Positions 16,894-35,058 of a stretch of DNA of 64,000 bases are shown here, piece by piece; positions within the stretch are counted from its first letter, which is position 1; each line of letters opens with the position of its first letter. The notes under the pieces were generated by a model. The model did no database searches. It saw only the letters and a program-made list of their open reading frames with translations, and was not told the origin of the DNA. Location of the stretch: contig NZ_BONW01000016.1 of NCBI RefSeq assembly GCF_016862915.1, positions 186,001-250,000 of the forward strand, read 5' to 3'. The translations under genes and the position numbers were made by a program. The stretch comes from Plantactinospora endophytica. Its GTDB lineage: Bacteria; Actinomycetota; Actinomycetes; Mycobacteriales; Micromonosporaceae.

Positions 16894-17982
16894 TCAGTGG
16901 AGTCCCTGTTCGGGCGGGGCGATCCGTGGCGCGCCCGGCCCGGTTCGGCGGGCGCGGTGTGCACCCACCGGGCGCCGCCCGCGCCGCCGCAACCGCAGGC
17001 CGAGCAGCACGAGTACGCCGAGCAGCGCCCCCGTCGCCGCCAGAATCAGGATCATCGACGGCCCGTCGTCCTTCGTGACCACCAGCGAGCTGGGCCGGGG
17101 TTCGGGCAGGCTGAGCGTCGCCTTGGACTCCCGCAGTACCGCCCCGTCGGCGACGGCGAGTTCGGCGTTCCACGGTCCGGCCGGCAGCCGCCCGTAGAGC
17201 GGTACCGTCATCGACCCGGAGCTCTGCGGGGCGATGGTGACCCCGCCCAGCGCGGTGAACGGGCCGAGCGCCGCCGGGCTGGACGCCGTCGACAGCCGGA
17301 GGGTGCCGTGCGGATCGAGGGCCCGGGGACCGGTGTTGCGGACCTGGGCGACCACCACCGGGACGCCCCGGGCGGTCTGTTCGGCCCGCATGCCGACGAT
17401 CTCGAAGGCGGGCTGGGGTTCCGCTCCGGTGCCGACGTTCAGGTAGACCCGCAGGCCGGTACGGCGGGCCGGCGGCGCCTTGCCGGCCCGTTTCGGCGAC
17501 TTCGGTGCCGCTGCGGCGATCTGCGCCCAGATCACGGCGTACCGCTCGCCCGGTGCGGCCGATGCCGGAACGGTGAGCCTGATCCGCACCGGCTTCTTCG
17601 CCCTCGGCTCCAGCCGGAAGGTCGACGACGGGACGCGGGTCCAGCGGCTCAGTTCGTTGCCGGTGCGCCCCTCGGCATAGCTGAAGGTGTCGTTGCGGAT
17701 GGTCGCCCCGGCCGGATAGACGGTGACGTGTTGCCGGAGCCGGGACGGGTTGACCACCTCGATCCAACGGTCGACGACGTCGCCCGGCCGGGCGTGCGCC
17801 GCCAGCCGGGTCAGGTCGGCATCGCTCGGCTTGTCGCCCGGTGGGACGGCGACGCGTACCTCCAGCGCGCCGCCGCTGTCGACGGCGGCCGATGCCGCCA
17901 CCGTCGCCGGGGTCAGTTGCAGGGTCAGGCCGGCGGTGACGGCGACGAGGCCCAGCCGGCGCAGTGATGTGTGCACGCGCAT
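16894..17982 (-). CDS. Membrane-anchored surface protein, DUF916/WxL-like
   Basis: 362 aa from ATG 17982. Signal peptide about 1-33 (LVAVTAGLTLQLTPATVAAS), an extracytoplasmic two-lobed beta-rich region (about 35-305), a transmembrane helix (ILILAATGALLGVLVLLGL, about 311-329) and a strongly basic cytoplasmic tail. Blocks such as RPGDVVDRWIEVVNPS and PGERYAVIWAQI match the DUF916-type ligand-binding domain found in cell-surface proteins. It is the last gene of the leftward exopolysaccharide arm but is separated from the epimerase gene by a strong hairpin, so it may have its own promoter. A role in wall or polymer binding is inferred. Confidence 0.7.
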   Translation of the reverse strand: MRVHTSLRRLGLVAVTAGLTLQLTPATVAASAAVDSGGALEVRVAVPPGDKPSDADLTRLAAHARPGDVVDRWIEVVNPSRLRQHVTVYPAGATIRNDTFSYAEGRTGNELSRWTRVPSSTFRLEPRAKKPVRIRLTVPASAAPGERYAVIWAQIAAAAPKSPKRAGKAPPARRTGLRVYLNVGTGAEPQPAFEIVGMRAEQTARGVPVVVAQVRNTGPRALDPHGTLRLSTASSPAALGPFTALGGVTIAPQSSGSMTVPLYGRLPAGPWNAELAVADGAVLRESKATLSLPEPRPSSLVVTKDDGPSMILILAATGALLGVLVLLGLRLRRRGRRPVGAHRARRTGPGAPRIAPPEQGLH

Positions 17983-18043
17983 TGCGATCGGAACTTTCTG
18001 TCGACACCCGTGACCCGGGTACCCCCGTCGCCGGGGTCACGAG

Positions 18044-18092
18044 CACTCGCGGCCGGCGGCGTCGGACAGCGCTGACGAGCCGGCCGCGAGTG
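18044..18092. terminator. Long-stem hairpin between the epimerase and DUF916-like genes
   Basis: CACTCGCGGCCGGC (18044-18057) pairs perfectly with GCCGGCCGCGAGTG (18079-18092) around a 21-nt loop that itself contains CGTC/GACG. A second, nearly perfect hairpin (GTGACCCGGG with CCGGGGTCAC, about 18009-18040) lies next to it. It may terminate or attenuate the leftward operon before the DUF916-like gene. Confidence 0.7.
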
Positions 18093-18107
18093 TTGGTGGT
18101 TGCGGAC

Positions 18108-19391
18108 TTATCGGGTCGGTGAGAGCACCGGCCGGGGCGGGCCGGCCCGTTGCACGAGCCGGCGGACCAGGTCGAGGTCGTCGACCTCGGAGCCGTTGGG
18201 GTCCACCGCGACGGGGTCGACTTCGACGCCCGTCGTCGCCGGCAGGTCGGCCCGGGCGGCCGACGGCTCCGGCCGGGACACCGGGATGAGCAGGTCGGCC
18301 AGGGCCGCGACGGCGCGGGTGGCCGACCGGCCGTCCCCGAACGGGGAGGACATCGTCGGTACCGGTTCCGAGCGGAGATGTTCGACGACCGCCTGGGCGA
18401 TCCGCTCCGGGCGGGTACCGACCAGCCGACCCCGGCCGGCGGCGAGTACCTCCGGACGTTCGGTCCGGTCCCGGGTCACCAGTACCGGCGCCCCGATCGT
18501 CACCGCCTCCTCCTGGATGCCGCCGGAGTCGGTCAGTACGACGTCGGCGACGAGCAGCAGGCCGATCATCTCCGGGTACGGCAGTGCGGGCAGGACCCGC
18601 ACGGACGGTACGCCGGTCAGTGCGGTCCTGATCTCCGCCCCGAGCGCCGGGTTGGGGTGCAGGACCACGATCACCTGCGCGTCGGGGCGTACCTCGCCGA
18701 GCTTCACCAGTCCCGCGCAGATGTCGCGTACTCCCTGGCCCCAGTTCTCCCGGCGGTGCATCGTCGCGACCACGACCGGTCGGCCGTGGTCCAGCCAGTC
18801 CGGCGGCCGGGCCAGGTCGTGGTCGACCAGGTGGTCGAGGGCGTCGACCACGGTGTTCCCGGTGAGCACGATGCGCTCCGCTGCCACCCCCTCGGCGAGC
18901 AGGTGGCGTCGCGCGGTGTCGGTCGGTGCGAGGTGGAGGTCGGCGATCCGGGCCAGGAGGGCCCGGTTCGCCTCCTCCGGGAACGGTTCCCGCAGGTTGT
19001 GTGTGCGCAGGCCGGCTTCCAGGTGTACGACGGGGATGCCGCGCCAGAACGCGACCAGTCCGCCGGCCAGTGCGGTCAGGGTGTCGCCCTGCACCACCAC
19101 GGCGGCCGGGTTCCGCCGGCCGAGCGCGGCGTCCACGGCGGACAGCAGTGCGACGGCGAGTTCGGCGAGCGAGCCGTCCCGGCGGACCGGGATCAACACC
19201 TCGTCGGGGGCCAGACCGAAGGGAGCCAGGGTTTCGGCCACCTGGTCGGGCTGTTGCCCGCTGTCGATCAGCGTCGTCGTGAAGCGACCGTCCCGACCCA
19301 GTTCCAACGCCAGCGGCGCCAGTTTTATCCCCTCCGGACGGGTACCCGCCAGCAGGACGATCTCCGGTTGGTCGAAGTTCCTGTCTCCCAT
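18108..19391 (-). CDS. wecB: UDP-N-acetylglucosamine 2-epimerase (non-hydrolysing)
   Basis: 427 aa, ATG 19391, full length for the family. Signature blocks are all present: GTRPEGIKLAPLALEL, LEAGLRTHNLREPFPEEANR, the active-site segment TMHRRENWGQGV and LTDSGGIQEEA. It interconverts UDP-GlcNAc and UDP-ManNAc in the cytoplasm, supplying ManNAc or a derived sugar acid to a surface polymer. The first motif has Gly in place of the common Ala (GTRPEA), a mild change. It follows the exported-protein gene by 9 nt in the leftward operon of the exopolysaccharide locus, which fits a precursor-supply role. Confidence 0.88.
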   Translation of the reverse strand: MGDRNFDQPEIVLLAGTRPEGIKLAPLALELGRDGRFTTTLIDSGQQPDQVAETLAPFGLAPDEVLIPVRRDGSLAELAVALLSAVDAALGRRNPAAVVVQGDTLTALAGGLVAFWRGIPVVHLEAGLRTHNLREPFPEEANRALLARIADLHLAPTDTARRHLLAEGVAAERIVLTGNTVVDALDHLVDHDLARPPDWLDHGRPVVVATMHRRENWGQGVRDICAGLVKLGEVRPDAQVIVVLHPNPALGAEIRTALTGVPSVRVLPALPYPEMIGLLLVADVVLTDSGGIQEEAVTIGAPVLVTRDRTERPEVLAAGRGRLVGTRPERIAQAVVEHLRSEPVPTMSSPFGDGRSATRAVAALADLLIPVSRPEPSAARADLPATTGVEVDPVAVDPNGSEVDDLDLVRRLVQRAGPPRPVLSPTR

Positions 19392-19400
19392 GCTGGCTCC

Positions 19401-20264
19401 CTAGGACCGGATCGCGGCTTCGCGGCGGCTGCGGTGGCGCAGGAACCCACCGACGGCGACGAGCCCGAGCGTGCCGGCGGCGATCGGCGCACCGGCGAGC
19501 GGGATGACCGGGATCGGCGGCGCGATCGCGTTCGGTCCGCAGACCACGTTGCCCACGTCGAGCGAGACCAGCAGCCCGGAGATCGCCTCGATCTGCAACG
19601 CCGTCACGTCGATCTGGCCCGGCCCGGAGCTGGTCTGCGCGTTGAGCACGACGTTGAGCAGTCCCGGCAGGGTGAGCCCGGTGTTCTGTGCCGGGTTGGG
19701 CGACAGGTTGAGCAGGGTGGTCTCGATGCCCAGGACGGTCGAGGTGATCCGCGCGTTCACCAGGGAGGCGGCGCCGTCGGCGGTCGGCGCGCTGGTCGCC
19801 TCGCAGGTGGCGTAGATCGCGTCCGCGGTCAGCGCGATGGTCGCACCGGCCACGACACCCAGCACCAGGTCGACCTCGGCGCCGTTGTCGACGGTGCAGG
19901 TGCCGTCGGCACCGACCACGAACTCGCCACCGGTGCCGAGCAGTCCGGCACAGCCACGGGAGACGCCGCCGAACAGCGCGGTACCGTACTGGCCGAGTAC
20001 GCCGGCCGTGATGACGTTCTGACTGCCCAACACGCTCAGCAGTGGACTCGAGTCCCCGGTGGTGGTCTCGCTGCCGCCGTCGGTGTTGTTGGCGGTGAAC
20101 GTGCCCGAACTGGCCACCGAGCCGCCGAGCAGGGTGATGTTCAGCGCGGACGCCGAGACCTGCGAGGTGTCGGCCAGCGCCGGCGATGCGGCGAGTAGGG
20201 CGGCGGTGCAGCCCGCGGCCGCCGCCACAGCCAACCGCCCGAACGGTAAGCACTTTTTCGTCAT
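19401..20264 (-). CDS. Exported surface protein with C-terminal anchor, probable exosortase client
   Basis: 287 aa from ATG 20264, preceded by a strong AAGGAGCGG ribosome site. Signal peptide about 1-31 (cleavage near SPALA-DTS). The mature domain is Gly/Thr/Ala-rich and beta-rich, with paired cysteines, resembling the 'choice-of-anchor P' exported proteins of actinobacteria (recalled family name, not checked). The C-terminus has the tripartite form of a sorting signal: short motif region PPIPVIPLAGAP, a hydrophobic helix (AAGTLGLVAVGGFL) and a basic tail RHRSRREAA. No LPXTG is present. It is encoded in the same operon as the exosortase-family protein at 21701-22303, the likely processing enzyme. 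Confidence 0.7.
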   Translation of the reverse strand: MTKKCLPFGRLAVAAAAGCTAALLAASPALADTSQVSASALNITLLGGSVASSGTFTANNTDGGSETTTGDSSPLLSVLGSQNVITAGVLGQYGTALFGGVSRGCAGLLGTGGEFVVGADGTCTVDNGAEVDLVLGVVAGATIALTADAIYATCEATSAPTADGAASLVNARITSTVLGIETTLLNLSPNPAQNTGLTLPGLLNVVLNAQTSSGPGQIDVTALQIEAISGLLVSLDVGNVVCGPNAIAPPIPVIPLAGAPIAAGTLGLVAVGGFLRHRSRREAAIRS

Positions 20265-20340
20265 GTTTGAACCGCTCCTTGTTTTTCTTGGATCTGGACT
20301 GGGGGTGGAACCCTGCACGGAGTTCCGCACCGGGGGAGGT

Positions 20341-21711
20341 TCAGGGATGCGGCGTTGCCGCGCCGCGCGTCAACACGACCCGGACGAGGTCCTGGGAGCG
20401 CGCGGTCTTCTGCCAGTCGGACCGGGCGGTGAGCAGGCGGAGGAACGCCCACCAGACGGCCACGCACTGGACGTAGCTGTTCAGCCAGTGGCCGAGGCCG
20501 AGCCCGATTGCGGCCGGCACGCTCAGGCTCCGGTCGCAGCGGGCCCGGTAGATCAGCCCCCAGGCGGCGAACGGGAGGATGCCGAAGACCACGATCAGCG
20601 GCAGTACGCCCCAGCCGCCGTGCGACCACCAGCCGACCAGGCCGGACGGGGTCTGCCAGATGTAGTAGCCGAGCACTGCCGAGCAGGCCAGGTAGACCAG
20701 GGTTCCGCCGAGCTGGGTCCACGGCGCGGAGAGGAAGTGGGCGATCTCCACGGCGGCGGTGTTCCGGATGTGTCGGGAGGTCAGCACGGCCCAGGCGTAC
20801 CGGGCGCACTGCATGGAGCCCTGTGCCCAGCGGGTACGCTGCCGGATCAGCAGTCGGAGCCTGACCAGCGCCTCCTGGGCGACCCAGGTCTCCGGGCAGT
20901 ACTCGGTCCGGCCGCCGGCGAGCAGCACGTGCAGGCCGAGTTCGAAGTCCTCCAGCAGCGCGCCGTGCCAGGGCGTGCCCTGGGACTCGGCGATCCGGTC
21001 CAGCATGTCCAGCCGGGTGAACTGCCCGTTGCCGCCCATGCCCACGCTGCCGGTCCGGCGCCGCAGTTCCTGCATCGCGGCGATCGGGCCCCGGAACTCC
21101 ATGTCCTGCAACCGGATGAGCAGTTGGCTCCACCGCCGCCGGCCGACCCGGGAGCGGGCCCGCCCACAGTCGAGCATCCGTACCTCGATCTGCACGGCGG
21201 AGATCCGGGACCGGCCGAAGTAGCGCCGGCCGGCGAGCGCGGTCAGGCAGTTCGGGTCGAGGCGGCTGTCGGCGTCGACCACCCCGACGAGGATCCGGCT
21301 CCGGTCGGCGTCGGCCGGTACGCCGGCCCGGATCGCCCGCCAGCCTGCGTTGAGGGCGGCACCCTTGCCCTGCCGCGCCTCCGGCAGCACCCGGTGCACC
21401 ACCCGGACGCGCGGGTCGGCCGCGAGAGTGTGGAGCAGTTCGCCGGTGCCGTCCGTGGACGCGTCGTCGACGCACCAGATCGTCGCCTCCGGGCAGGCAC
21501 GCCGTAGGGCGCGTACCGTCTCGGCGATCACCGAGGATTCGTCGCGGCAGGGTACGAGGAGGTGCCATTCGAATCCGGCGGGATCGCCGCCGGTGCTCCG
21601 GTCGTTCCGCAGGAAGATGACCATGATGCCGACCACGTAGGCGCAGAAGGTCACGCAGAGCAGGAACGCCAGGGTGTTCAGCAGTTCCAGGGCGCTGAGT
21701 TCAAGTGACAT
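20341..21711 (-). CDS. Processive GT2-type membrane glycosyltransferase
   Basis: 456 aa from ATG 21711, overlapping the exosortase gene by 11 nt. A hydrophobic N-terminal helix (about 9-32) precedes the GT-A catalytic domain: LLVPCRDESS, CVDDASTDGT, the metal-site VVDADSRLD, and the acceptor/QxxRW motif QRTRWAQGS. Several C-terminal membrane helices follow (about 325-430). This architecture is that of cellulose/chitin/hyaluronan-synthase-like enzymes that polymerise and export a chain. In this operon it may build a linear polymer independent of, or attached to, the Wzy-type polymer of the rightward arm. The donor is not known; UDP-ManNAc or UDP-GlcNAc is possible given the next epimerase. Confidence 0.85.
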   Translation of the reverse strand: MSLELSALELLNTLAFLLCVTFCAYVVGIMVIFLRNDRSTGGDPAGFEWHLLVPCRDESSVIAETVRALRRACPEATIWCVDDASTDGTGELLHTLAADPRVRVVHRVLPEARQGKGAALNAGWRAIRAGVPADADRSRILVGVVDADSRLDPNCLTALAGRRYFGRSRISAVQIEVRMLDCGRARSRVGRRRWSQLLIRLQDMEFRGPIAAMQELRRRTGSVGMGGNGQFTRLDMLDRIAESQGTPWHGALLEDFELGLHVLLAGGRTEYCPETWVAQEALVRLRLLIRQRTRWAQGSMQCARYAWAVLTSRHIRNTAAVEIAHFLSAPWTQLGGTLVYLACSAVLGYYIWQTPSGLVGWWSHGGWGVLPLIVVFGILPFAAWGLIYRARCDRSLSVPAAIGLGLGHWLNSYVQCVAVWWAFLRLLTARSDWQKTARSQDLVRVVLTRGAATPHP

Positions 21712-22303
21712 GATCGGCGTTCCGAACTGCTCGGCCCCGGGTCAGCAGCACGACGAACAGGATCGCGCTGCCGACCACCCCGAGGGTGGTGATCACCGAT
21801 CCGATCAGTACGTGGCTGCGTTCGTAGCCCTGCTCGAATCCCCAGAGCCGCATCGAGCCGACGACCGCGGCGAGCCGGAGCTGGTTGACGGCGACCAGCA
21901 GGACCGCGGTGACCGCGCAGCACACGGTCGCCCGGGACACGCTGACCCGTCCGACGAACATGAGGAAGGCGGCCAGGGCCACCGGCGGGATCAGCAGCAG
22001 CCCGACCGAGCAGCCGAGCGTCACCATGAAGCCGACCCACCGCTCGTCCAGCGGAAAGATCACGGTCGAGTAGCTGGAGCGCGCCTCGGCGAGTCCGAGC
22101 CCGTCCACGAAGCGTGCGCTCAACCAGGCTTCGCCGCCGGCGATCCAGCGGAGGTTCGCGGCCACCGCACCGGCCGCACCGACGCCGACCAGGGCGGCGA
22201 GCACGAGGCGGAGCCGGGAGGGCCGGCCGGCCGGCGGGCGGGCATTCGGCCGCCGGGCCGCCACGGGACTCCGGTGGATGCTCCGCAGGTGGGTACCGGT
22301 CAC
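21701..22303 (-). CDS. Exosortase/archaeosortase-family membrane protease
   Basis: 200 aa from GTG 22303, in 4-nt overlap (GTGA) with the mini-protein upstream. About five to six hydrophobic segments. The exosortase catalytic pattern is visible: Cys98 at the start of a helix (LGCSVGLLLIPP), Arg143 in the AVNQLRLA motif, and His164 in RSHVLIGSVITTLG. Exosortases are multi-pass transpeptidase-like enzymes that cut C-terminal sorting signals of exported proteins and are characteristically found in exopolysaccharide loci. The likely client is the anchored protein at 19401-20264, and the mini-protein at 22300-22449 is another candidate. I believe an actinobacterial subgroup called XrtP exists, but cannot confirm membership. 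The family call rests on these three residues and topology. Confidence 0.75.
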   Translation of the reverse strand: MTGTHLRSIHRSPVAARRPNARPPAGRPSRLRLVLAALVGVGAAGAVAANLRWIAGGEAWLSARFVDGLGLAEARSSYSTVIFPLDERWVGFMVTLGCSVGLLLIPPVALAAFLMFVGRVSVSRATVCCAVTAVLLVAVNQLRLAAVVGSMRLWGFEQGYERSHVLIGSVITTLGVVGSAILFVVLLTRGRAVRNADHVT

Positions 22304-22449
22304 TGGGACCGCTTCTGCAACACCAGCAGCACCATCGCCGCACCCAGGATGACCAGGCCCAACCCGGCCAGTAGCCAGGACTGCAACGCCACCCCGGTCA
22401 GGGCCAGCCCGCCGCCGGTCGGTGGCCCCTTGGGACCGTACATGACCAT
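22300..22449 (-). CDS. 49-residue LALTG mini-protein (sorting signal only)
   Basis: A short gene, ATG 22449 (or ATG 22443, better spaced from the GGGGGTGA ribosome site), stop 22300-22302. The product has ten short residues (MVMYGPKGPP), then TGGGLALTGVAL, a single transmembrane helix (about residues 22-43) and the tail LQKRSQ. The LALTG pentapeptide, helix and basic end have the layout of an LPXTG/LAXTG cell-wall sorting signal, but there is no signal peptide and no mature domain. It is translationally coupled to the exosortase gene by GTGA. Coding is supported by this coupling and by the ordered hydrophobic pattern. Function unknown: possibly an exosortase partner, regulator or minimal substrate. 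Confidence 0.65.
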   Translation of the reverse strand: MVMYGPKGPPTGGGLALTGVALQSWLLAGLGLVILGAAMVLLVLQKRSQ

Positions 22450-22753
22450 CACCCCCGTCTTGCTTCGCTCCGGTCAGCAGTAACATTAGGGGCGAAACAC
22501 CCCAGTGTTCGCAGCTATCCCTAAAAACCCCTTATCGGTCATAATTCATCGAGTACCGGCGATGGCCGTGCGCAAGGACTCTCGCGTTCGGTGGTGGCGC
22601 CACGCCGGACCGTCGGGCGGGAGGTGTCGGTGGGTATTTACGTCGTTTATCGGTATTAGTCCTTTTAGGGCGTTTAAGGTATGTCCAACCATGAATCGAA
22701 TGTGTTGAGCGATTCAGATTTGTCCACCACCCGAAACCGGAAGCCCCACGACG
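22450..22753. promoter_or_regulatory. Divergent control region of the exopolysaccharide locus
   Basis: 304 bp, clearly AT-richer than its surroundings, between the leftward exosortase operon and the rightward polymer operon. A dyad spans about 22488-22526: TAGGG...CCCTA flanks enclose GCGAAACAC/GTGTTCGC with one bulged base. A second AT-rich patch (22630-22690, TATTTACGTCGTTTATCGG and following) lies nearer the rightward gene. Both are candidate promoter or operator sites; I see no known riboswitch. Short open frames here (for example from 22681) are not supported. Confidence 0.5.
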
Positions 22754-23836
22754 TTGAGCATCGACCAGACGCAACTCGTCCCGTCCGCGCCGCCCGGCGC
22801 CGAGGCCGGCGCGGACCGCCGTACCGGCACCGGAGCGCGCCGGACCGGTGCGCGACACGCCGTCGTCCCGAGCCCGCCCCGCCGGCCCGGGCGGCACCGA
22901 CGCGGCCGGAACAGCACCGCCGGCCGCCGGTCCGCGCCGGCCCGCAGGGGCGTCCGGGCACTGGTACTGGAGCCGCGTACCGGCGACGCCACCCCCGACC
23001 GACTGGCCGACGAGTTCCACGTCGCCGCCCGCCTGCCACTGCCGGAGCGGATGGAACAGCTCGACGAGGCACTGCTGCGGTGGCGGCCGAAGCTGCTGCT
23101 CTGCAAGCACCCGCTGGACAGCCTCGACGCCCGGCTCGCCGCCGTCTGCCTGGCCCACGACGTCGAGATCTTCGTACTCGCCCACCCGGTCTACGGGCTG
23201 CTGCAACCCGCCCGGCTGCGTCGGTTCGGCGGACTGCCGTGGCTGCGGCTCCGGCCCGGCCGGTCGGGGGAGGAGAAGGTGAAGCGCGCCCTCGACGTGG
23301 CGGTGACCCTGCTCGGCGCCCCGCTGGTGGTACCACTCATGCTGGTCGTCGCGGCGGCGGTGAGCCTCAGCGGGCCGCCGCTCTACCGCCAGGAACGGGT
23401 GGGTGCCGGCGGGCACCGGTTCCACATGGTCAAGTTCAGGACCATGCGTGCCGACGCCGAGCGGCACACCGGACCGGCGCTGGCCAGCGTGGACGACGCC
23501 CGGGTGACCCGGGTCGGCCGGGTGCTGCGGCGGTTCCGGCTCGACGAACTCCCGCAACTGTGGAACGTGGTCCGCGGCGACATGAGCCTGGTCGGCCCGC
23601 GCCCGGAGCGCCCCGAGTTCGTCGCCACCTTCCGGGAACTTCCGCACTACGAGCTGCGGCACCGGATCCGGCCCGGGATGACCGGGATCGCCCAGCTCAC
23701 CGGCGGCTACGCCGCGACGGTCGAGGAGAAGCTCCGCTGCGACCTGCTCTATCTGCACTGCCGGTCGCTGCGGCTGGACCTGCTGCTGGTGGTGCTGACC
23801 ATCGTCGAGCTGTTCCGGGGGTTCCCCCGTGGCTAG
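22754..23836 (+). CDS. Undecaprenyl-phosphate sugar-phosphate transferase
   Basis: 360 aa from TTG 22754, the only upstream start in frame; the ribosome site is weak. Residues 1-65 are Arg/Pro-rich and probably disordered. Residues ~66-165 form a small soluble domain, and from VKRALDVAVTLLGAPLVVPL a single re-entrant or membrane helix leads into the bacterial sugar transferase domain. The domain shows KFRTMRADAE, the catalytic-type RLDELPQLWNVVRGDMS and LVGPRPERPEF. It loads the first sugar-1-phosphate onto undecaprenyl phosphate to begin the repeat unit. Compared with WbaP-type enzymes it lacks a long polytopic N-terminus. First gene of the rightward exopolysaccharide operon. Confidence 0.87.
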   Translation: MSIDQTQLVPSAPPGAEAGADRRTGTGARRTGARHAVVPSPPRRPGRHRRGRNSTAGRRSAPARRGVRALVLEPRTGDATPDRLADEFHVAARLPLPERMEQLDEALLRWRPKLLLCKHPLDSLDARLAAVCLAHDVEIFVLAHPVYGLLQPARLRRFGGLPWLRLRPGRSGEEKVKRALDVAVTLLGAPLVVPLMLVVAAAVSLSGPPLYRQERVGAGGHRFHMVKFRTMRADAERHTGPALASVDDARVTRVGRVLRRFRLDELPQLWNVVRGDMSLVGPRPERPEFVATFRELPHYELRHRIRPGMTGIAQLTGGYAATVEEKLRCDLLYLHCRSLRLDLLLVVLTIVELFRGFPRG

Positions 23837-26251: not shown

Positions 26252-26294
26252 CCGCTCAACTGGAGGCCACCACCTGCCCGCGACGGAGGCAGCG

Positions 26295-27596: not shown

Positions 27597-28794
27597 CACC
27601 GCCCCTCCCCGGACGGGCTCCCGAAGTGGTCCGGTCGCGGCCGTCGGCGGCGTCGGGCGTACCGGACCGGGCTGGGTGCTGATGTTCAGCGGCAGCCCGT
27701 GGCGGGCCGCCGCACACCGGCAGCACGCGCTGGCCCGGGAGTTGGCCGCCGACTGGCGGGTGGTCTTCGTCGACCCGCCCGGGAACCGGCCGCGCTGGCG
27801 GTGGACGGTACGCCGGGTCGACGACTCGCTCTGGCACGCCGTGCCGCCGGCCGTCCTCCCGTTCGGCCGGCACCTGCCGGCGGTCAACCGGCTGACCCGC
27901 CGGGTCGAGGCGGCGCTGCTGGACCACTGGCTGCGGCATCGGGCCCACGGCCCGGCCGGCGAGCCGTCCGGCGCCCGGATCGTCTGGCTCGACGAGGACC
28001 TGGCCTGGCCGGTACCGGCCCGGCTCGACCCGACGGTGGTGGTCTACGACGCCACCGACCTGGACTGGACCTTCACCCGACGGTGGAACCGCGCGCACCT
28101 GCATCGGGCGTTGCGGGCCGCGGTCGGCGCCGCCGACCTGGTCCTGGCCTCCTCCTCGGCGCTCCCCGAACGGCTGCCGGCGGCCCGCCGCCCGCCCGTG
28201 GTGATCGCCAACGGCTGCGATCCGCACCGGTTCACCGCCGACGGGCCGGTCGCGGCCGGGCTGACCGGGCTGCCCCGGCCGATCCTCGGCTACCTCGGTG
28301 CGGTGGACACCCGGGCGTTCGACGCCGAGCTGGTCGCCACCGTCGCACGGCGCCGTCCGGAGTGGACGTTCGCGCTCGTCGGTCCGTCGACCCGGGCCGG
28401 CCGGGCACCGCTGGCCGGACTGCCCAACGTCCGGCTGAGCCCGCCGGTGCCGTTCGCCGACGCCCCGGCGCTGGTCCGGGGCTTCGACGTCGGCATCATC
28501 CCGTACCGGACCGGTGGGCTGGTCGACTACGTGCATCCCAAGAAGTGCTTCGAGTACCTGTCCGCCGGTCGGCCGGTGGTCGCCACCGCGCTGCCGGCGC
28601 TGCGGGACCTCGGTGCGCCGATCCGACTGGCGGCGACCGCCGGGCAGTTCGAGGCGGCCGTCGAGGACGAACTCCGTACCGCCTGGTGCCCGGAGGCGGT
28701 CGACCTGCGGCGTGCCGTCGCCGCCCGGCACAGTTGGGCCGCCCGTGGTACGCGGCTGCGGAAACTGCTCGCGGAAGTGCCGGCCCTCCGGTGA
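27589..28794 (+). CDS. GT-B glycosyltransferase (GT1/GT4-like)
   Basis: 401 aa from GTG 27589, overlapping the previous gene by 8 nt; ATG 27681 (MFSGSPW) would start precisely at the domain. The N-terminal Rossmann domain contains VLMFSGSPWRAAAHRQ and VVFVDPPGNRPR. The C-terminal donor domain has VIANGCDPHRFT, LGYLGAVDTRAFD, GLPNVRLSPPVPFAD and the phosphate/ribose-binding region HPKKCFEYLSAGRPVVAT. This is the typical build of GT-B enzymes that use nucleotide sugars. Adds a sugar to the lipid-linked repeat unit. Its N-terminal domain recurs as the C-terminal extension of the preceding GT2. Confidence 0.85.
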   Translation: MASTAPPRTGSRSGPVAAVGGVGRTGPGWVLMFSGSPWRAAAHRQHALARELAADWRVVFVDPPGNRPRWRWTVRRVDDSLWHAVPPAVLPFGRHLPAVNRLTRRVEAALLDHWLRHRAHGPAGEPSGARIVWLDEDLAWPVPARLDPTVVVYDATDLDWTFTRRWNRAHLHRALRAAVGAADLVLASSSALPERLPAARRPPVVIANGCDPHRFTADGPVAAGLTGLPRPILGYLGAVDTRAFDAELVATVARRRPEWTFALVGPSTRAGRAPLAGLPNVRLSPPVPFADAPALVRGFDVGIIPYRTGGLVDYVHPKKCFEYLSAGRPVVATALPALRDLGAPIRLAATAGQFEAAVEDELRTAWCPEAVDLRRAVAARHSWAARGTRLRKLLAEVPALR

Positions 28795-30050
28795 GCGCGG
28801 TGTCGGTGTCGACCGTCGCGATCGCGGCCGTGGCCGGCACCACGGTGGCGGTGTCGGCGGCTGTCCTGCCGGGCCAGCTCGGCATCGCCGCCGCCGGTAC
28901 GGTGCTGTGCGGGCTGGGTTTCGTCGTCTGGCCGTGGGCGGTGCTGCCGATGGGCATCATCGGCGGGTCGATCGCCAGCGGTCTGCTCGGGGTGGCCGAC
29001 GTGCAGACCTTCGTCCTCCTGCACACCCTGCCGCTGGTGGCCGGCTGCGCGGCGCTGGTCGTACGGCGGATGCTGCTGCCGGCCGTGGCCGTGGGCCGGC
29101 CGTCGACCAGCACCGTCGCGATGGCGGGACTCTCCGTCGCCACCGCCGTCGCCGCCGTCTACGGCCTCGCCCTCGGCAACCAGCCCTGGAACGTCCTCGT
29201 CGCCGCCTACCAGGTGGCGGTGATCCCGGCGTACTACTTCCTCGCCACCTACACCCTGGACACCCCCCGACGACTACGGGCCGGTGCGGTCTGCTACCTC
29301 TCCGTCGTCGGCGTACTCACCGCCATCGAGATCGCCACCCCGGGCCGGCACGGTGGACTGCTCTCCGCACTGGCGGTACCCCCGCTGATGGTCCTCGCCG
29401 GCCGCGCCCACGGCTGGTACCGAGCCGGCCTGATCCTCCTGACCGCTCTGTTCCTCACCGACGTCGTGCTCGCCTCCTACCGGGGAATCTGGCTCGCCGC
29501 CGGCACCGCCATGCTGATCATGCTCGTCCGGGGCGGGCGCGTCGTCCGGTACGGAGTACTCGCCGCCGTGGCCGGCGCGATCCTGGTCCTCGGCGCGAGC
29601 AGCCTGCACTCCGGAGTACGCGAACGCTCCTCCGTCGTCAGCCTGGCGTTCCAGCGCGACTCCGGACACCGTGTCCCGGAGAGCACCGTCGGACTCGACG
29701 CGTTCGCCGCCGCGCCCCTACTCGGCGCCGGACTCGGCCAGTCCAGCCCGCAGGTCTACGTCAAGGGCTTCACCGTCACCGACGTCGGACCCGTCTACCA
29801 CGCCTTCTGGGTGATGATCCTGGCCAACCTCGGCCTGCTCGGACTCGTCGCCGTGCTCTGGCCGGTGGCCCGGACGCTGCGCGCCGGACTCACCCGACAC
29901 AACGACCTCGCCCTGGCCTTCGCCGCGCTCACCTGCGGCTTCCTCGCCGCCGCCTTCTTCGCCGGCCCGACCGACGGGCACTGGGAACTCGGCCTGCTCC
30001 CGGCGCTGACCATGCTCGCCGCCCGGATACCGGCGGAGGTGCGGTCATGA
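28791..30050 (+). CDS. O-antigen ligase/polymerase-family (Wzy-like) membrane protein
   Basis: 419 aa from GTG 28791 (4-nt overlap). Roughly eleven hydrophobic segments with a central extracytoplasmic loop (about 290-350: RDSGHRVPESTVGLDAF) as in Wzy_C-type polymerases and O-antigen ligases. A conserved-type Arg is in the ASYRGIWLAAG segment, a motif common to this family. Sequence conservation in Wzy is low, so the call rests on topology and on neighbours (initiating transferase, flippase, glycosyltransferases and chain-length regulator). It should join flipped repeat units outside the membrane. The stop overlaps an ATG that opens a tiny leader frame. Confidence 0.8.
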   Translation: MSAVSVSTVAIAAVAGTTVAVSAAVLPGQLGIAAAGTVLCGLGFVVWPWAVLPMGIIGGSIASGLLGVADVQTFVLLHTLPLVAGCAALVVRRMLLPAVAVGRPSTSTVAMAGLSVATAVAAVYGLALGNQPWNVLVAAYQVAVIPAYYFLATYTLDTPRRLRAGAVCYLSVVGVLTAIEIATPGRHGGLLSALAVPPLMVLAGRAHGWYRAGLILLTALFLTDVVLASYRGIWLAAGTAMLIMLVRGGRVVRYGVLAAVAGAILVLGASSLHSGVRERSSVVSLAFQRDSGHRVPESTVGLDAFAAAPLLGAGLGQSSPQVYVKGFTVTDVGPVYHAFWVMILANLGLLGLVAVLWPVARTLRAGLTRHNDLALAFAALTCGFLAAAFFAGPTDGHWELGLLPALTMLAARIPAEVRS

Positions 30051-30090
30051 CCGCGCGGACACCGGCGGAGGTGGGGTCGTGACCGCGCGG
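30029..30090 (+). repeat. 32-bp tandem duplication of a start region, with an 11-codon leader frame
   Basis: ACCGGCGGAGGTGCGGTCAT and following bases at 30029-30058 recur at 30061-30090 with two mismatches. Each copy carries a GGAGGT ribosome site and a start codon. The first start (ATG 30047, overlapping the wzy stop as ATGA) opens an 11-residue frame ending at 30082, whose TGA overlaps the GTG 30079 start of the GT2 as GTGA. The duplication therefore inserts a tiny coupled leader frame between two real genes. Confidence 0.8.
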
Positions 30091-31113
30091 GCGGGCTACG
30101 GCGCGACCAGGCCGAGCGGGCCGGGGCCGGCCGGCGCGGCGGTGCCGCCCAGCGGCACGGTGGCGACCGCCGTGCTGGTGACGTACAACTCGGCCCGGCA
30201 CATCGCCGCCGCGCTGACCCCGCTGCTCCGGGCCGGCCTGGCCGTCCGGGTCGTCGACAACGCCTCCCAGGACGGCACGGTCGCGCTGCTGGCCCGGGAG
30301 TTCCCCGACGTCGAGGTGACCGCCAACCGGCGCAACGTCGGCTTCGCCGCTGCGGTCAACCAGGCGCTCGCCGGCTGCGAGTCGGAGGTCGTGCTGCTGG
30401 TCAACCCGGACTGCGTACTGCCGGTCGGCGCCGCGTGGGCACTGCTCGGCTACCTCGACGGCCACCCCGAGGTGGGCGTCGTCGGGCCGCGACTCGTCGA
30501 CGCCGCCGGACGGGTGGCGATCAGTGCCCACCCCTTCGAGAACCTGACCAGCGTCCTGCTGTCCCGGTTCGGCGGCAGTCTGGTCCCGGTACCGCTGCGC
30601 CGGCTGGTCAGCGGGGGCCGGCGCCGGTCGGCGTACGACGCGTGCCGGGCACCGTCCGGGCCGGTCAGCGTCGACTGGCTCTCCGGCGCCTGCCTCGCGG
30701 TCCGGCGTTCCCTGCTGACCGAGGTCGGCGGCCTCGACGAGAACTACTTCATGTACTACGAGGACGAGGAGCTGTGCCTCCAGGTGCATCGGCGGGGTGC
30801 CGACGTGGTCCTGCTGCCGGCCGTGTCGGCGACGCACACCGGTGGCGGCAGCAGCGCCGATCCGAACTGGATCTGGCCGCACCTCTACCGGAGCATGCTG
30901 CACTTCTTCGCCCGGCACCGCCGCTCGACGTACCAGGCGGTCCGGTTGGCGGTGCTGCTCCGGGCACTGCTCGGGATCGGCCTGGCCGCCGTACGCCTGA
31001 CCGTGTCACCCCGGTCCGGCACCGCCCGGGCCCGCGCCTGGTACTCCGTCGCCCGGACTGCGGCCACCGCCACCTCGACGGCCCCGGAAAGGCAACCCGC
31101 ATGCACATCCTGA
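30079..31113 (+). CDS. GT2 glycosyltransferase (rhamnosyltransferase-like)
   Basis: 344 aa from GTG 30079. The GT-A domain shows AVLVTYNSARHIA, VRVVDNASQDGT, NVGFAAAVNQAL, LLVNPDCVLP, the WLSGACLAVRRS block and DENYFMYYEDEELC with the acidic acceptor-site residues. This matches WbbL-like rhamnosyl- and related transferases. A hydrophobic stretch near the C-terminus (about 295-315) may associate with the membrane. The N-terminal ~28 residues are Gly/Pro-rich and may be untranslated extension, but no other good start is available. Overlaps the next gene by 13 nt. Confidence 0.85.
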   Translation: MTARAGYGATRPSGPGPAGAAVPPSGTVATAVLVTYNSARHIAAALTPLLRAGLAVRVVDNASQDGTVALLAREFPDVEVTANRRNVGFAAAVNQALAGCESEVVLLVNPDCVLPVGAAWALLGYLDGHPEVGVVGPRLVDAAGRVAISAHPFENLTSVLLSRFGGSLVPVPLRRLVSGGRRRSAYDACRAPSGPVSVDWLSGACLAVRRSLLTEVGGLDENYFMYYEDEELCLQVHRRGADVVLLPAVSATHTGGGSSADPNWIWPHLYRSMLHFFARHRRSTYQAVRLAVLLRALLGIGLAAVRLTVSPRSGTARARAWYSVARTAATATSTAPERQPACTS

Positions 31114-32327
31114 TCACGGCGGTGGGCCAGCGCACCGAGCACTGGACCGACCTGTTCACCCTGTTCTGCGCCCGGCCCGAGCTGTCCCTGACCATCGTCG
31201 CCGCCGACGTCTCGGCCGGCACCGACAGCACTTTGCGGGCGCTGGCCGAAGAGGTGCCACGGCTGCGGTACCACCGGGTGCCGCACCTGCTGGGCGAGGA
31301 CCGGACCGGGCACATGGCGTCGGTGCTGTTCCGGCGCCGACAGCTACGGCAGGTCCTGCCGGCCCGGCCCGACGTACTGCACGTGATCGGCGAGGCCGCC
31401 TATCTGAGCACCTGGCAGGCGCTCGGCGTACGGCGCCGGCGCTGGCCCCGGCTGCCGGTGACGCTGTACGCCGCGCAGAACGTCGTCACCCGGTTCCCGA
31501 CACCGTTCCCGCAGCTCGAACGGCGGGCGTTCGACACCGTCACGCACGCCTTCCCGATCACCCCGGCGGCGCTCGGAGTCCTGCGGACGAAGGGGTACCG
31601 GGGACCGGCGACGGTCGTACCGCTGGGTGTGGACACCCGGCTGTTCGCGCCCGCGTCGCGGCCACGGCGCCGGCAGCCCTTCACCGTCGGCTTCGTCGGC
31701 CGGCTGGAGCCGCACAAGGGCGTCGCGGACCTGCTGCGCGCGGTCGAACTCGTCGACGCCGACCTGCTGGCCGTCGGCCGGGGCAGCCTGGCCGACGCGG
31801 TGACCCGGGCGGCGGCCCGCCGCCCCGGCCGGGTACGGCTGCACGACTGGGCCGACCACGCCGCGCTGCCCGGCCTGCTCCGCCGGATGGACGTGCTGGT
31901 CCTGCCGTCGATCGAGGTCGTGCAACGGAACGTGCTGCCCTGGGTGGGCATACCGCTGCGGGAACAGTTCGGCCGGGTACTCGTCGAGGCGATGGCCTGC
32001 GGCGTACCGGTCGTCGGCAGCGACGTGGGGGAGATCCCGCACATCCTCGGGGACGCCGGGCTGAGCTATCCGGCCGGCAACGTGCTGGCCCTGGCCGACC
32101 GGTTGACCCGGCTGCGGAACGACGCCGGCCTGTCCGGCCGGCTCCGGGAGCGGGGCCTGCGCCGCGCCGCGGAGTTCGGCTGGGACCGGGCGGCCGACAC
32201 GATGTGCGAGGTCTGGCAGCGGCTGCTGTGGTCCAGCCGCGCCGACAATCCGGCCTGGTGCGCGGCACCCCGGCCGGCAATGGCGGAGATGTCCGATCCG
32301 GACACGGGGAAGGCGAGAACGACATGA
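31101..32327 (+). CDS. GT4-family glycosyltransferase
   Basis: 408 aa from ATG 31101, with GGAAAGG upstream. GT-B fold: N-terminal domain with DVLHVIGEAAYLSTWQAL and LYAAQNVVTRFP, then the C-terminal donor domain with VVPLGVDTRLFAP, GFVGRLEPHKGVADLL and the family signature EQFGRVLVEAMACGVPVVGS carrying the EX7E-type acidic pair. Transfers a sugar from a nucleotide donor to the growing repeat unit. The C-terminal ~35 residues (after EVWQRLLWSS) are extra and probably disordered. Followed by the chain-length gene in 4-nt overlap. Confidence 0.87.
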   Translation: MHILITAVGQRTEHWTDLFTLFCARPELSLTIVAADVSAGTDSTLRALAEEVPRLRYHRVPHLLGEDRTGHMASVLFRRRQLRQVLPARPDVLHVIGEAAYLSTWQALGVRRRRWPRLPVTLYAAQNVVTRFPTPFPQLERRAFDTVTHAFPITPAALGVLRTKGYRGPATVVPLGVDTRLFAPASRPRRRQPFTVGFVGRLEPHKGVADLLRAVELVDADLLAVGRGSLADAVTRAAARRPGRVRLHDWADHAALPGLLRRMDVLVLPSIEVVQRNVLPWVGIPLREQFGRVLVEAMACGVPVVGSDVGEIPHILGDAGLSYPAGNVLALADRLTRLRNDAGLSGRLRERGLRRAAEFGWDRAADTMCEVWQRLLWSSRADNPAWCAAPRPAMAEMSDPDTGKARTT

Positions 32328-34198
32328 GGACCCGGACCAGGGTACGGAAGGCGCTGCGCACCGTACGGCAGCACGCGGCGATCCCGGTGCTCGCCCTGCT
32401 GGCCGGCGCGGCCGGTGCCTATGCGGTGACCATCTCGGTGCCACCGACGTACGAGGCGGTCGCCTCGGTGATGGTGGTACCCGCGAAGGCGGCCGACGGC
32501 GGGGCCCCGAACGGCGTCGACATCAGCGTCGCGCAGAACCTCGCCCCCACGATCGCCCGGCTGGCGGAGTCCCGGCAGGTGGCCACCGACGCGGCGGCCG
32601 CGCTCGGGCTCGCCGAGGAACTGGTGGTGGGGCGGGTGAGCGGTGCCTCCGAACCCGGTCTCCAGATCGTGACGATCCGTGCGACGGCCCGTACCGGCGC
32701 CCAGGCGGCGGCGATCACGAACGCGGTGACCGAGGCGCTGAGCCGCGAGGTCGGTGCGATGCGGATCGGCGGCGACTCCCCGGTTACCGCCGAGCCCTTC
32801 GACCGGGCGGCGCCGCCGCTCACCCCGGAAACGCCGAAGCCGCAGCTCAACCTGTTGCTCGGCGGGTTCGCCGGGCTGCTCGCCGGACTGGCTCTCGCCT
32901 CGCTGCGCAACCGGCTCGACGACCGGCTGCGCCGGCTCGGTCAGACCGAGGAGTACCTCCGCCTGCCGGTGGTCGGCGTGCTGCCGCAACTGCCGCGCCG
33001 GGGCACGGCCAGGGCCGGCGAGACGTACGCCCGCCCGGACGTCGCCGGCACCGTCAAGGGAGCCGTGGCGGCGCTGAGTGTGCTGACCGCGCCCAGCCCC
33101 CGCTGCCGGGTTCTGGTCGTCGGGGTGCACGACACCACCACCGTCGACCTGGTCGCCGGGATCCTGGCACTCGGCCTGGCCGAGCAACTGCACCGGGCGA
33201 CCCTGCTGGAGGGCGAGATCGGCCAGCCGACCCTGGCCGAGGTCTTTCCCGGTTCGGAGCGGTGCACCGTGCAACAGGTAATCGCCGGGGAGCGCCGACC
33301 GGAGCCGCTGGCCGGCTGCGGGTCGCTGTCGGTCGTCCCGGCGGACCCGATCCGGCGTACCTTCGGCGCGGCGCCGCCCCGTGCGGAGCGGATCGGCACG
33401 CTGCTGGACGAACTCGCGGAGGGCGGCGGCGCCGTGGTGGCGACCGCCCCGCCGGTGCTGACCGGTGCCGACCTGCCGGCGCTCGCCCGGCACGCCGACG
33501 CGGTACTGCTGGTCGTGCACGCCAACCGGACCCGCAAGAGCGCGGCGAAGCGGGCGACGCTGCTGCTGCAACGGCTCGACGTACCCCTGGTCGGAGTGCT
33601 CCTGGTGGGCGGTGCCGACGAGTCGGACAACCCGGTCTCCTCGGCCTGGCCGGCGGTGCGGGCGGCGCGGCCGGTACCGCACCACGACCCTGCCCCCGAT
33701 CCGGCGGGCACGCCGACCCGCCGGCCACGCCCGGCCCGCACGCCGCTCGCGCCGGTACCGGCGCCGGCCGGTCGGACGGCTTCCGTCGCACGCCCGGCCG
33801 CGCCGGCCGGTGGCCCGGCTCCGGGCACCACTCGCCCGGTCGTACCGGCCGGCGGGCGCGATCCGGCCGTCACCGGTCCGGACCGGGTTGCCCCGGTTCC
33901 GGTCGGAACTGCCATCGGTCCGGATGGGGTTGCCCCGGTTCCGGTCGGAGCTCCCGCCGGTTCGGGCCGGGTTGCCCCGGTTCCGGTCGGAGCTTCCGCC
34001 GGCCCCGACGATCACATGCCGGACCAGGGCTGGCCGGAACCCTCGTCCGCCTTCGACGCGGACCTGCCGATCCTGGCCAGGTTCCGGGCGGCCATGCAGC
34101 GGCAACCGTCGTCAGCGGTGCTTCCGTGGGTCGGCTCCCCGGGGCCGACCGTGCCGCACACGTCCCGACGTCCCAACCGAGATCTGGAGAAACCATGA
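32324..34198 (+). CDS. Wzz-like chain-length protein with degenerate BY-kinase domain
   Basis: 624 aa from ATG 32324. TM1 (about 16-38) and TM2 (about 175-194) bracket an extracytoplasmic Wzz region (YEAVASVMVVPA through RAAPPLTPETPKP), the last part being the Pro-rich segment before TM2. The cytoplasmic region (about 215-460) resembles a BY-type tyrosine kinase/ParA fold. However, the Walker A site is replaced by VVGVHDTTTVDL with no GK[ST], so ATP binding is doubtful. The late block DAVLLVVHANRTRKSAAKRA is retained. The C-terminal ~160 residues are Pro/Arg-rich and contain three 14-residue repeats (VAPVPVG). Controls chain length or assembly of the Wzy polymer. A pseudo-kinase role is inferred. 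Confidence 0.82.
   Translation: MRTRTRVRKALRTVRQHAAIPVLALLAGAAGAYAVTISVPPTYEAVASVMVVPAKAADGGAPNGVDISVAQNLAPTIARLAESRQVATDAAAALGLAEELVVGRVSGASEPGLQIVTIRATARTGAQAAAITNAVTEALSREVGAMRIGGDSPVTAEPFDRAAPPLTPETPKPQLNLLLGGFAGLLAGLALASLRNRLDDRLRRLGQTEEYLRLPVVGVLPQLPRRGTARAGETYARPDVAGTVKGAVAALSVLTAPSPRCRVLVVGVHDTTTVDLVAGILALGLAEQLHRATLLEGEIGQPTLAEVFPGSERCTVQQVIAGERRPEPLAGCGSLSVVPADPIRRTFGAAPPRAERIGTLLDELAEGGGAVVATAPPVLTGADLPALARHADAVLLVVHANRTRKSAAKRATLLLQRLDVPLVGVLLVGGADESDNPVSSAWPAVRAARPVPHHDPAPDPAGTPTRRPRPARTPLAPVPAPAGRTASVARPAAPAGGPAPGTTRPVVPAGGRDPAVTGPDRVAPVPVGTAIGPDGVAPVPVGAPAGSGRVAPVPVGASAGPDDHMPDQGWPEPSSAFDADLPILARFRAAMQRQPSSAVLPWVGSPGPTVPHTSRRPNRDLEKP
33878..34003 (+). repeat. Three 42-bp in-frame tandem repeats in the chain-length gene
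   Basis: Units at 33878-33919, 33920-33961 and 33962-34003 share a GGGTTGCCCCGGTTCCGGTC core and encode a 14-residue repeat containing VAPVPVG. The unit length is a multiple of three, so copy number can change without frameshift. Confidence 0.85.
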
Positions 34199-35058
34199 GC
34201 GAGACCCTGGTGCCGACCCAACCGTCGGGCCGTACCCTCGACGATCCGCGAGAGCTCTACAGCGACCTGTTGAAGAAGGCCCTCACCAGGTACGCCTTCG
34301 GCGAGACGTGGCAGCCGTTCACGCCCCGCCCCGGCCGGCTGCGAAGCGTGCTGTTCCGCCAGGGACAGCGGCTGCTGCGTCGACGCGGACTGGATCTGGT
34401 GTGCCGGTTCCCGTTCGACCCGGAGGCCCGGGCCAACGGCCGCGACTGGCCGCCGGACGCGGAGACCATGGTCGGGCTGCGCCGCCTCGACAACGTCGAA
34501 CGGTGCGTCCTGGACGTCCTCCGGCAGCAGGTGCCCGGTGACCTGATCGAGACCGGGGTCTGGCGGGGCGGCACCACCATCTTCATGCGTGCGCTGCTGG
34601 CCGCGTACGGCGACCGGGAGCGGGTGGTGTGGGTCGCCGACTCGTTCCGGGGCCTGCCCCGGCCGCAGGCGCACCGGACCGAGGACGTCGAGGACGCGTT
34701 GTGGCAGGTGCCCTTCCTCGCGGTACCGCTGCACCAGGTGCAGGAGAACTTCCGCCGCTACGGACTCCTCGACGACCAGGTCAGGTTCCTGCCGGGGTGG
34801 TTCGAGGACACCCTGCCGGACGCACCGGTCCAGCGGATCGCGGTGATGCGGCTCGACGGGGACCTCTACGACTCCACAAGCGTGGCGCTGCGGTCCCTGT
34901 ATCCCAAGCTGTCGGTCGGCGGGTACGTGATCGTCGACGACTACCACGCCGTACGCGGCTGCCGGCAGGCGGTCGACGACTTCCGGGCCGAGTACGGCAT
35001 CACCGACGAACTGGTCTCGGTGGACTGGACCTGCCGCTACTGGCAGCGCACCCGCTGA
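34195..35058 (+). CDS. TylF/macrocin-type O-methyltransferase family protein
   Basis: 287 aa from ATG 34195 (4-nt overlap). The SAM-binding region LIETGVWRGGTTIFMRALL (about 118-136), then VVWVADSFRGLPRP and the metal/catalytic-type block MRLDGDLYDSTSVALRSLYP and GGYVIVDDYHAVRGC match the TylF family of sugar O-methyltransferases, whose conserved Asp residues bind Mg2+. It is the last gene of the rightward operon and is followed by a hairpin. It probably O-methylates a polymer sugar or a lipid-linked intermediate. Confidence 0.86.
   Translation: MSETLVPTQPSGRTLDDPRELYSDLLKKALTRYAFGETWQPFTPRPGRLRSVLFRQGQRLLRRRGLDLVCRFPFDPEARANGRDWPPDAETMVGLRRLDNVERCVLDVLRQQVPGDLIETGVWRGGTTIFMRALLAAYGDRERVVWVADSFRGLPRPQAHRTEDVEDALWQVPFLAVPLHQVQENFRRYGLLDDQVRFLPGWFEDTLPDAPVQRIAVMRLDGDLYDSTSVALRSLYPKLSVGGYVIVDDYHAVRGCRQAVDDFRAEYGITDELVSVDWTCRYWQRTR

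Follow-up and report, generated by a model that had tools for sequence, protein, structure and literature searches.

A stretch of 64,000 nucleotides (nt) from Plantactinospora endophytica (contig NZ_BONW01000016.1, positions 186,001 to 250,000; hereafter the window), part of a 9.68 Mb genome in 90 contigs, carries five minus-strand genes lying head to tail, which encode a microprotein, a putative exosortase, a GT2 glycosyltransferase (GT), an exported client protein and WecB. It is tentatively proposed, with somewhat less than even confidence, that this cassette constitutes a one-client surface-display system, in which a divergent actinobacterial exosortase would be built on a synthase-type glycan module and the microprotein would be the attachment point on the wall. 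The least expected feature is the microprotein itself, a cargo-less L[AP]xTG protein that recurs from locus to locus. The genes of the cassette and the predicted signal of the client are as follows:

22300-22443, minus strand: microprotein, 47 amino acids (aa); an alternative start is possible at 22449.
21701-22303, minus strand: putative exosortase, 200 aa, GTG start, matching NCBIfam XrtR/XrtS/XrtP, with Cys98/Asn140/Arg143/His164.
20341-21711, minus strand: processive synthase-type GT2, 456 aa, with QRTRW, matching NF053846 and Pfam Glyco_tranf_2_3.
19401-20264, minus strand: client, an exported choice-of-anchor P protein (NF040603), 287 aa, with a predicted C-terminal exosortase-type signal.
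19485-19511, minus strand: candidate client signal P252-x-x-P255-x-x-G258-x-P260 (PVIPLAGAP), from the client alignment, followed by a helix and a basic tail.
18108-19391, minus strand: wecB, non-hydrolysing UDP-GlcNAc 2-epimerase (TIGR00236), predicted to supply UDP-N-acetylmannosamine (UDP-ManNAc).

The stop codon of the microprotein gene and the start codon of the exosortase gene overlap by 4 nt, and the exosortase and GT genes overlap by 11 nt; gaps of 76 nt and 9 nt separate the GT2 gene from the client gene and the client gene from wecB, respectively. The initial annotation of this DNA had described a coupled operon holding an exosortase with Cys98/Arg143/His164, an exported protein with a non-LPXTG tripartite C-terminus, a synthase-type GT2 and, mentioned in passing only, a mini-protein with a sorting-like signal. 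These descriptions are upheld by the gene overlaps and by the residues, profile matches and motifs given for each protein below.

The comparisons cover 41 exosortase loci. The discovery set comprises 27 (the window, L013-L028, L030, L068 and L096-L103) after removal of L029, which shares its contig with L021, and of the shorter copies L001-L012 and L086-L095. The held-out set comprises 14 loci in L134-L146 (L142 has two), all from a single family that is also represented in the discovery set, by one other member (L097). In the NCBIfam scan, for which an N-terminally extended frame was used, the window exosortase scored 69.4 bits against XrtR (E 3.7e-19, cut-off 150), 58.9 bits against XrtS (cut-off 145) and 52 bits against XrtP (cut-off 200). 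Against TIGR04178 it reached 20.2 bits (cut-off 23); among its kin, L068 (31.1 bits), L022 (34 bits) and L030 (33.3 bits) lie above this cut-off, and L015 (19.9 bits), L018 (18 bits), L027 (19.9 bits) and L019 (20.5 bits) lie below it. Pfam gave nothing over cut-off for the exosortase, with PF09721 Exosortase_EpsH at 9.7 bits (cut-off 25.7, E 0.66) and DUF697 at 11.3 bits (cut-off 27.7). Cys98, Arg143 and His164 were invariant in 11/11 exosortases and then in 41/41, window included, and Asn140, Gly155 and Gly168 likewise show no variation across the 41 loci. By profile and residues taken together, the window protein is therefore assigned, on sequence grounds, to the exosortase/archaeosortase superfamily, outside every named family. 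It is highly improbable that it is instead an unrelated membrane protein. Such a reading could appeal to scores that fall under all curated cut-offs, those of TIGR04178 and Pfam EpsH included, and to a length of 200 aa, shorter than the EpsH proteins with their at least eight transmembrane helices (PMC1569441), but it is opposed by E-values down to 3.7e-19 against three exosortase models only 155-160 positions long, by the unvarying Cys/Arg/His set, by the three kin that exceed the TIGR04178 cut-off and by the tripartite client encoded alongside. The profile search that the initial annotation had set as a test of its exosortase claim likewise returned exosortase models from NCBIfam and no unrelated family.

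Exosortase homologues were found in 11 of the 200 sampled genomes of the host family, and XrtR matches at E<=0.001 in 9 of 394 genomes of the class, so that the distribution is sporadic. In the midpoint-rooted exosortase tree, the window falls in a 10-row clade with support of 100/100; a six-row group of Catenuloplanes-type and Quadrisphaera-type sequences is its neighbour (fork of that group 92/77, joining fork 97/85). The window exosortase is accordingly placed in a separate, unnamed actinobacterial clade. In the same tree, L028 falls with Quadrisphaera although its record bears the title Streptomyces sp. NP160, a name that may be wrong. An AlphaFold2 model (mean pLDDT 85.3) has helices at 30-49, 51-68, 105-117, 122-154 and 156-199, and the exosortase is predicted from it to be a polytopic membrane protein; comparison with solved structures gave no PDB sequence match at E<=1 and no fold match at E<=0.001. 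A second weak exosortase match in the host genome (contig C46, E 9.5e-4) was rejected, no exosortase-like gene being recognised there. In another genome, G1087, contig C2 carries two exosortase loci about 21 kb apart, with microprotein-like matches at 837443, 853358 and 916249.

The client scored 35 bits against the choice-of-anchor P model NF040603 (cut-off 27), its sole NCBIfam match at E<=1; a search for PEP-CTERM in the client gave no Pfam family. A signal peptide was judged by eye, and the C-terminus ends ...PPIPVIPLAGAPIAAGTLGLVAVGGFLRHRSRREAAIRS. Ahead of the C-terminal helix, P252, P255, G258 and P260 are invariant in 14 of the 14 aligned clients, giving P-x-x-P-x-x-G-x-P; the aligned rows come from Micromonospora-type, Catenuloplanes-type, Quadrisphaera-type and G580 genomes, with L015, L020 and the distant loci set aside. 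The distant loci have candidate clients with other bodies and looser signals. The client profile matched 10 of the 200 family genomes, all of them among the 11 with an exosortase; in the eleventh, G040, the candidate client is another protein. The other test put forward in the initial annotation concerned relatives with the client gene and no exosortase, and no such genome was found among the 200. Three Catenuloplanes-type genomes hold a second, unlinked client copy, and for this reason the exosortase may act in trans on unlinked clients. A second choice-of-anchor P protein of the host genome (C13:604535-606739, 734 aa) was considered as a further client and rejected, since it has no C-terminal anchor.

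The GT2 matched NF053846, the XrtP-associated glycosyltransferase, over nearly the whole model at 511.9 bits, just under the cut-off of 520, and relatives scanned singly ranged from 286 bits (L022) to 674 bits (L030). The processive-synthase motif Q..RW is present in the window (QRTRW) and in 24/24 relatives tested. At L017:7894-9398 the GT is split between two frames that overlap, probably through a frameshift or an error in the sequence. The GT adjoins the exosortase at 41/41 loci, with the microprotein in between once (L097). WecB scored 309 bits against TIGR00236 (cut-off 210), and wecB lies within the fetched span at 35/41 loci (25/27 discovery, 10/14 held-out); this count leaves out L142a, the L142 record having one wecB near its second exosortase. 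At L099:2102-4894 (minus strand), GT2 and WecB are fused in one 930-aa reading frame, and this fusion suggests that the GT is supplied with UDP-ManNAc. The constant adjacency of GT and exosortase also bears on an archaeosortase-like alternative, in which the exosortase would cut the client and attach it to a membrane lipid, the glycan genes and the microprotein being mere neighbours. There is a precedent in the archaeal S-layer glycoprotein, which ArtA processes at the C-terminus before it is anchored to lipid (PMC9263693), but adjacency at every locus points to a functional tie to glycan, and lipid attachment is judged unlikely.

The microprotein of the window begins Met-Tyr-Gly, continues with a Gly/Pro-rich segment, LALTG and a transmembrane helix, and closes with a KR tail (QKRSQ end). 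LALTG, the hydrophobic stretch and K-R match the layout of a sorting signal, and there is neither a signal peptide nor a cargo domain. Across loci the length is about 38-70 aa, and the common form, with spacing measured over 32 sequences, is a start codon, Tyr, 6-20 residues, L[AP]xTG, one helix and a basic tail. The microprotein is present at 33/41 exosortase loci. In the discovery set (21/27), 18 were found by a strict scan that disallowed TTG starts, to which L030 (2.9 kb upstream) and L103 (opposite strand, beside wecB) were added as being at the locus and L101 as fused: at L101:6614-7315 the microprotein lies in frame with the exosortase N-terminus in a 233-aa protein that keeps LPYTG and scores 16.9 bits against LPXTG_anchor (cut-off 15.9). 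In the held-out set (12/14), 11 were found by the same scan and L136, with a TTG start, by profile; the span searched was wider there, yet none of the 11 finds falls outside the original one. The two held-out loci without one, L142a and L145, belong to genomes whose other exosortase locus has a microprotein at or close to it.

Several results show that this small frame is a gene and not an artefact, an explanation ruled out by substitution rates, recurrence across loci and a motif-blind scan. The ratio of nonsynonymous to synonymous substitution rates (dN/dS) was 0-0.10 in seven of nine pairs (dN 0-0.06, dS 0.28-0.66) and 0.27-0.28 in the other two; for the window and L013, dN is 0.063 and dS 0.656. 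Tyr stands at position 2 in 35/36 microproteins (31/32 + 1 + 3) against 8/915 called genes, a count favoured by the setting of starts at an M/V/L-Tyr codon where several were possible. In 40 locus records, the motif-blind scan, which looked for Tyr2, a helix and a basic tail, gave 38 small frames, and L[PA]xTG is present in 30 of these. The recurrence exceeds chance: the remainder of the 27 discovery loci contains 4 look-alikes in 1039 kb-strand, two being the L030 and L103 microproteins and one the tail of a longer LAQTG protein. The window-type microprotein profile matched at E<1e-20 in 7 of the 200 family genomes, all with an exosortase; weaker and mostly partial matches (E 5.7e-8 or more) occur in 32 more genomes, nearly all in larger frames, although that of G149 lies in a 56-aa frame. 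Because it comprises only about 40-70 codons, the microprotein gene is easily overlooked.

PgaD and IcaD are small helpers of PgaC and IcaA, and the microprotein could similarly assist the GT2 synthase or the exosortase as a small membrane protein and never be a sortase substrate. A tiny single-helix protein near a synthase-type GT2 wherever it is found, and fused once to an exosortase, would fit a helper; the L[PA]xTG in 30/38 frames of the motif-blind scan and a helix poorly conserved across clades do not, and the helper role is regarded as improbable, if still worth weighing.

A further set of 14 loci (L069-L082) bears on the link between the microprotein and the exosortase. They come from the best of 30 loci, and L068 of the same list had an exosortase; L069-L073 were part-annotated, L069, L072 and L074 were annotated, and the other loci were scanned by script. 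GT2 and WecB occur without a detected exosortase at 9/14. An exosortase match was found in 0/11 genomes of the best GT2-WecB loci (search without positive control). For L082, one weak match to an exosortase (32 aa, 5e-4) was not counted, and the profile gave none. GT2 is fused to DUF2334 in L069 and L074, and L072, unscanned, looks alike. Three of these loci, from another actinobacterial family, carry microproteins of the form MY/VY..LPVTG near WecB and GT2, with no detected exosortase:

L069:8292-8411: microprotein.
L072:8434-8550: microprotein.
L074:13120-13238: microprotein.

Large exported proteins with repeated WYD-type segments are encoded near these three microproteins. The idea that the microprotein is exosortase-specific is weakened by these loci, and since they have microprotein and GT2 without a detected exosortase, the microprotein goes with the glycan synthase, most often alongside an exosortase.

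The mechanism proposed for the surface-display system is as follows. WecB would make UDP-ManNAc, and the processive GT2 would use it to make and extrude a glycan, as the GT motif and the single GT-WecB fusion suggest. The client would be exported and then held by its C-terminal helix; the exosortase, with Cys98 acting together with Arg143 and His164, would cleave it at PxxPxxGxP and pass it to an acceptor at the outer face of the membrane, most likely the glycan or a glycan anchor. Residue conservation and co-occurrence are consistent with this cleavage and transfer. The microprotein would be a minimal sortase substrate, with its N-terminus out and L[AP]xTG at the membrane surface, which a class E sortase encoded elsewhere would cut and fix to the wall. 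The wall-fixed microprotein would then be the attachment point for the glycan and, indirectly, for the client, which would be linked to the glycan directly or indirectly. This role is suggested by the motif, by the presence of the microprotein at GT2-WecB loci without a detected exosortase and by its fusion to one exosortase. The host genome has seven sortase genes, one of class E, five of class F over cut-off and one class-E-like at 75 bits; the class E sortase scored 242 bits (cut-off 160). It has been reported that class E sortases accept LAXTG (PMC5148588). In Actinoplanes missouriensis, deletion of class E affects sporangium formation, and deletion of all four class F genes gave no phenotype (PMC13251363).

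Several observations weigh against the proposal. The class E sortase is encoded on contig C19, another contig than that of the cassette. No microprotein lies at the locus in six cassettes that do possess exosortase, GT, client and wecB (three of Catenuloplanes type and three of Quadrisphaera type), so that it is not strictly needed for the exosortase step. When the three Catenuloplanes-type genomes were searched with the profile, the matches to the microprotein were all partial, and one in G006 (E 0.3) falls in a 72-aa frame. Likewise, six GT2-WecB loci without an exosortase (L070, L073, L075 and L077-L079) are also without a microprotein, the relaxed-motif frames of L075 and L077, which lack Tyr2 and lie several kb from the GT, not being counted. 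Immediately upstream of the exosortase, the Catenuloplanes-type and Quadrisphaera-type loci carry another gene instead, of about 310-325 codons; in L019 and L027, the two scanned, it gives weak GAF and degenerate GGDEF matches:

L019:8507-9481: upstream gene, weak GAF and degenerate GGDEF matches.
L026:4153-5094: upstream gene.
L027:8896-9861: upstream gene, weak GAF and degenerate GGDEF matches.
L028:8925-9863: upstream gene.

The loci that lack one partner or the other also bear on a relay of two transpeptidases, in which the exosortase would first link the client, once cleaved, to the free N-terminus of the microprotein and thereby give the client LAXTG, after which the class E sortase would fix the product to peptidoglycan. 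A protein that is a whole sorting signal with no cargo and no signal peptide, that keeps Tyr after its start codon in nearly every case, and whose gene overlaps that of the exosortase in the window and, in L101, is fused with it, would suit such a relay; six loci that keep exosortase and client without a microprotein, and three that have a microprotein without a detected exosortase, do not, and the relay is considered distinctly doubtful. A broader extension of the surface-display proposal, seen as rather unlikely but less so than the relay, is that sortase-tag microproteins are widespread covalent adaptors, with L[AP]xT fixed to the wall, the Tyr or free amino end bearing the GT2/WecB glycan or an exosortase-delivered client, and sortase and exosortase working in series.

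Divergently from the cassette runs a plus-strand cluster, which the initial annotation had called a complete Wzx/Wzy-type pathway. Its genes, with the region between the two operons, the exported protein beyond wecB and their profile scores, are as follows:

16894-17982, minus strand: exported protein with C-terminal helix and basic tail; no Pfam/NCBIfam family match.
22453-23050: region between the divergent operons, holding both CCCTAAA/TTTAGGG words of the window.
23051-23836, plus strand: initiating sugar transferase (PF02397, 203.2 bits); the true start may be upstream.
23829-25400, plus strand: Wzx-type flippase (PF01943, 56.6 bits; PF13440, 51.3 bits).
26295-27596, plus strand: GT2 (NCBIfam below cut-off, best MftF, 67 bits of 280).
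27676-28794, plus strand: GT4-like glycosyltransferase (PF13692, 32.3 bits).
28791-30050, plus strand: Wzy-like polymerase/ligase (PF04932, 29.4 bits, cut-off 31.7).
30079-31113, plus strand: GT2 (PF00535, 54.9 bits).
31101-32327, plus strand: GT4 (PF13692, 85.8 bits).
32324-34198, plus strand: Wzz-like protein (PF02706, 21.6 bits, cut-off 25.5).
34195-35058, plus strand: TylF-type methyltransferase (PF05711, 329.7 bits).

The initiating transferase and the flippase are over their Pfam cut-offs, and Wzy_C and Wzz are just under theirs; the cluster is real and near-complete. The two-polymer arrangement seen in the initial annotation, a synthase-type GT2 plus a Wzy route next to an exosortase, holds within the clade of the window and not beyond it: by tblastn, Wzy-type genes lie beside the cassette at 8/10 window-clade loci (the window, L013, L014, L016, L017 and L023-L025) and at 0/30 other locus records (spans of 10 to 20.6 kb). 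Since the cluster accompanies the cassette in this clade only, the exosortase cassette is independent of it.

The exported protein at 16894-17982 begins 125 nt past wecB and, among relatives, is seen in the spans shown only beside the same-genus cassette L013. A TerC gene (35279) and an acyltransferase gene (15313) were excluded from the cassette, although several relatives have an acyltransferase-like gene after wecB. In the region between the operons, the CCCTAAA/TTTAGGG words, the only two in the 64-kb window, lie at 22519 and 22664; in 5/10 loci checked (the window and four of Micromonospora type), TTTAGGG precedes the start of the microprotein by 81-85 nt. A sigma-70-like promoter or terminator was looked for in 22300-23060, and none was found.

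The set is small (exosortase, one linked client, glycan synthase and microprotein) and its host has a single membrane, which makes acceptor and anchor testable gene by gene. If the microprotein is indeed a wall-fixed attachment point, it would represent a novel route by which polysaccharide or protein is attached to peptidoglycan, common to distant actinobacteria.

The combination of exosortase and exopolysaccharide in a Gram-positive lineage, the setting of the arrangement that the initial annotation had found worth attention, is not itself new, and the parts are partly catalogued by NCBIfam (XrtP/R/S, the XrtP-associated GT, choice-of-anchor P and the LAXTG small protein); in the open-access literature searched, no paper was found that describes the whole gene set. 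XrtP, XrtR and XrtS (NF012139, NF012138 and NF033767) share profile family and size with the window exosortase, and a GT is named for its association with XrtP; however, the window exosortase stands apart, at 52, 69 and 59 bits against cut-offs of 200, 150 and 145, respectively. The LAXTG_small_WW model NF058583 describes a small protein with the same motif region: it was compared with 31 of the 32 microproteins, L024 being identical to L014, as in the conservation analysis, and 23/31 match at E<=0.01 (best 1.3e-10), but the window microprotein reaches only 21.9-22.1 bits (cut-off 65), and the name of the model is silent on exosortases and on LPXTG forms. The PEP-CTERM/EpsH system of Gram-negative bacteria shares a transpeptidase-like membrane protein, a tripartite C-terminal signal and an exopolysaccharide neighbourhood (PMC1569441). 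That 2006 paper reports no PEP-CTERM found in actinomycetes, and its EpsH proteins have more transmembrane helices than the window exosortase model. The window system differs from it in a smaller enzyme, a PxxPxxGxP signal, a Gram-positive envelope and a sortase-tag microprotein. GspA/LcpA of Actinomyces oris offers a precedent in which a wall-anchored protein receives glycan (PMC6381275); the glycosylating enzyme there is an LCP enzyme and its substrate a surface protein, whereas the window and its relatives have a peptide of 38-70 aa near a GT2 synthase.

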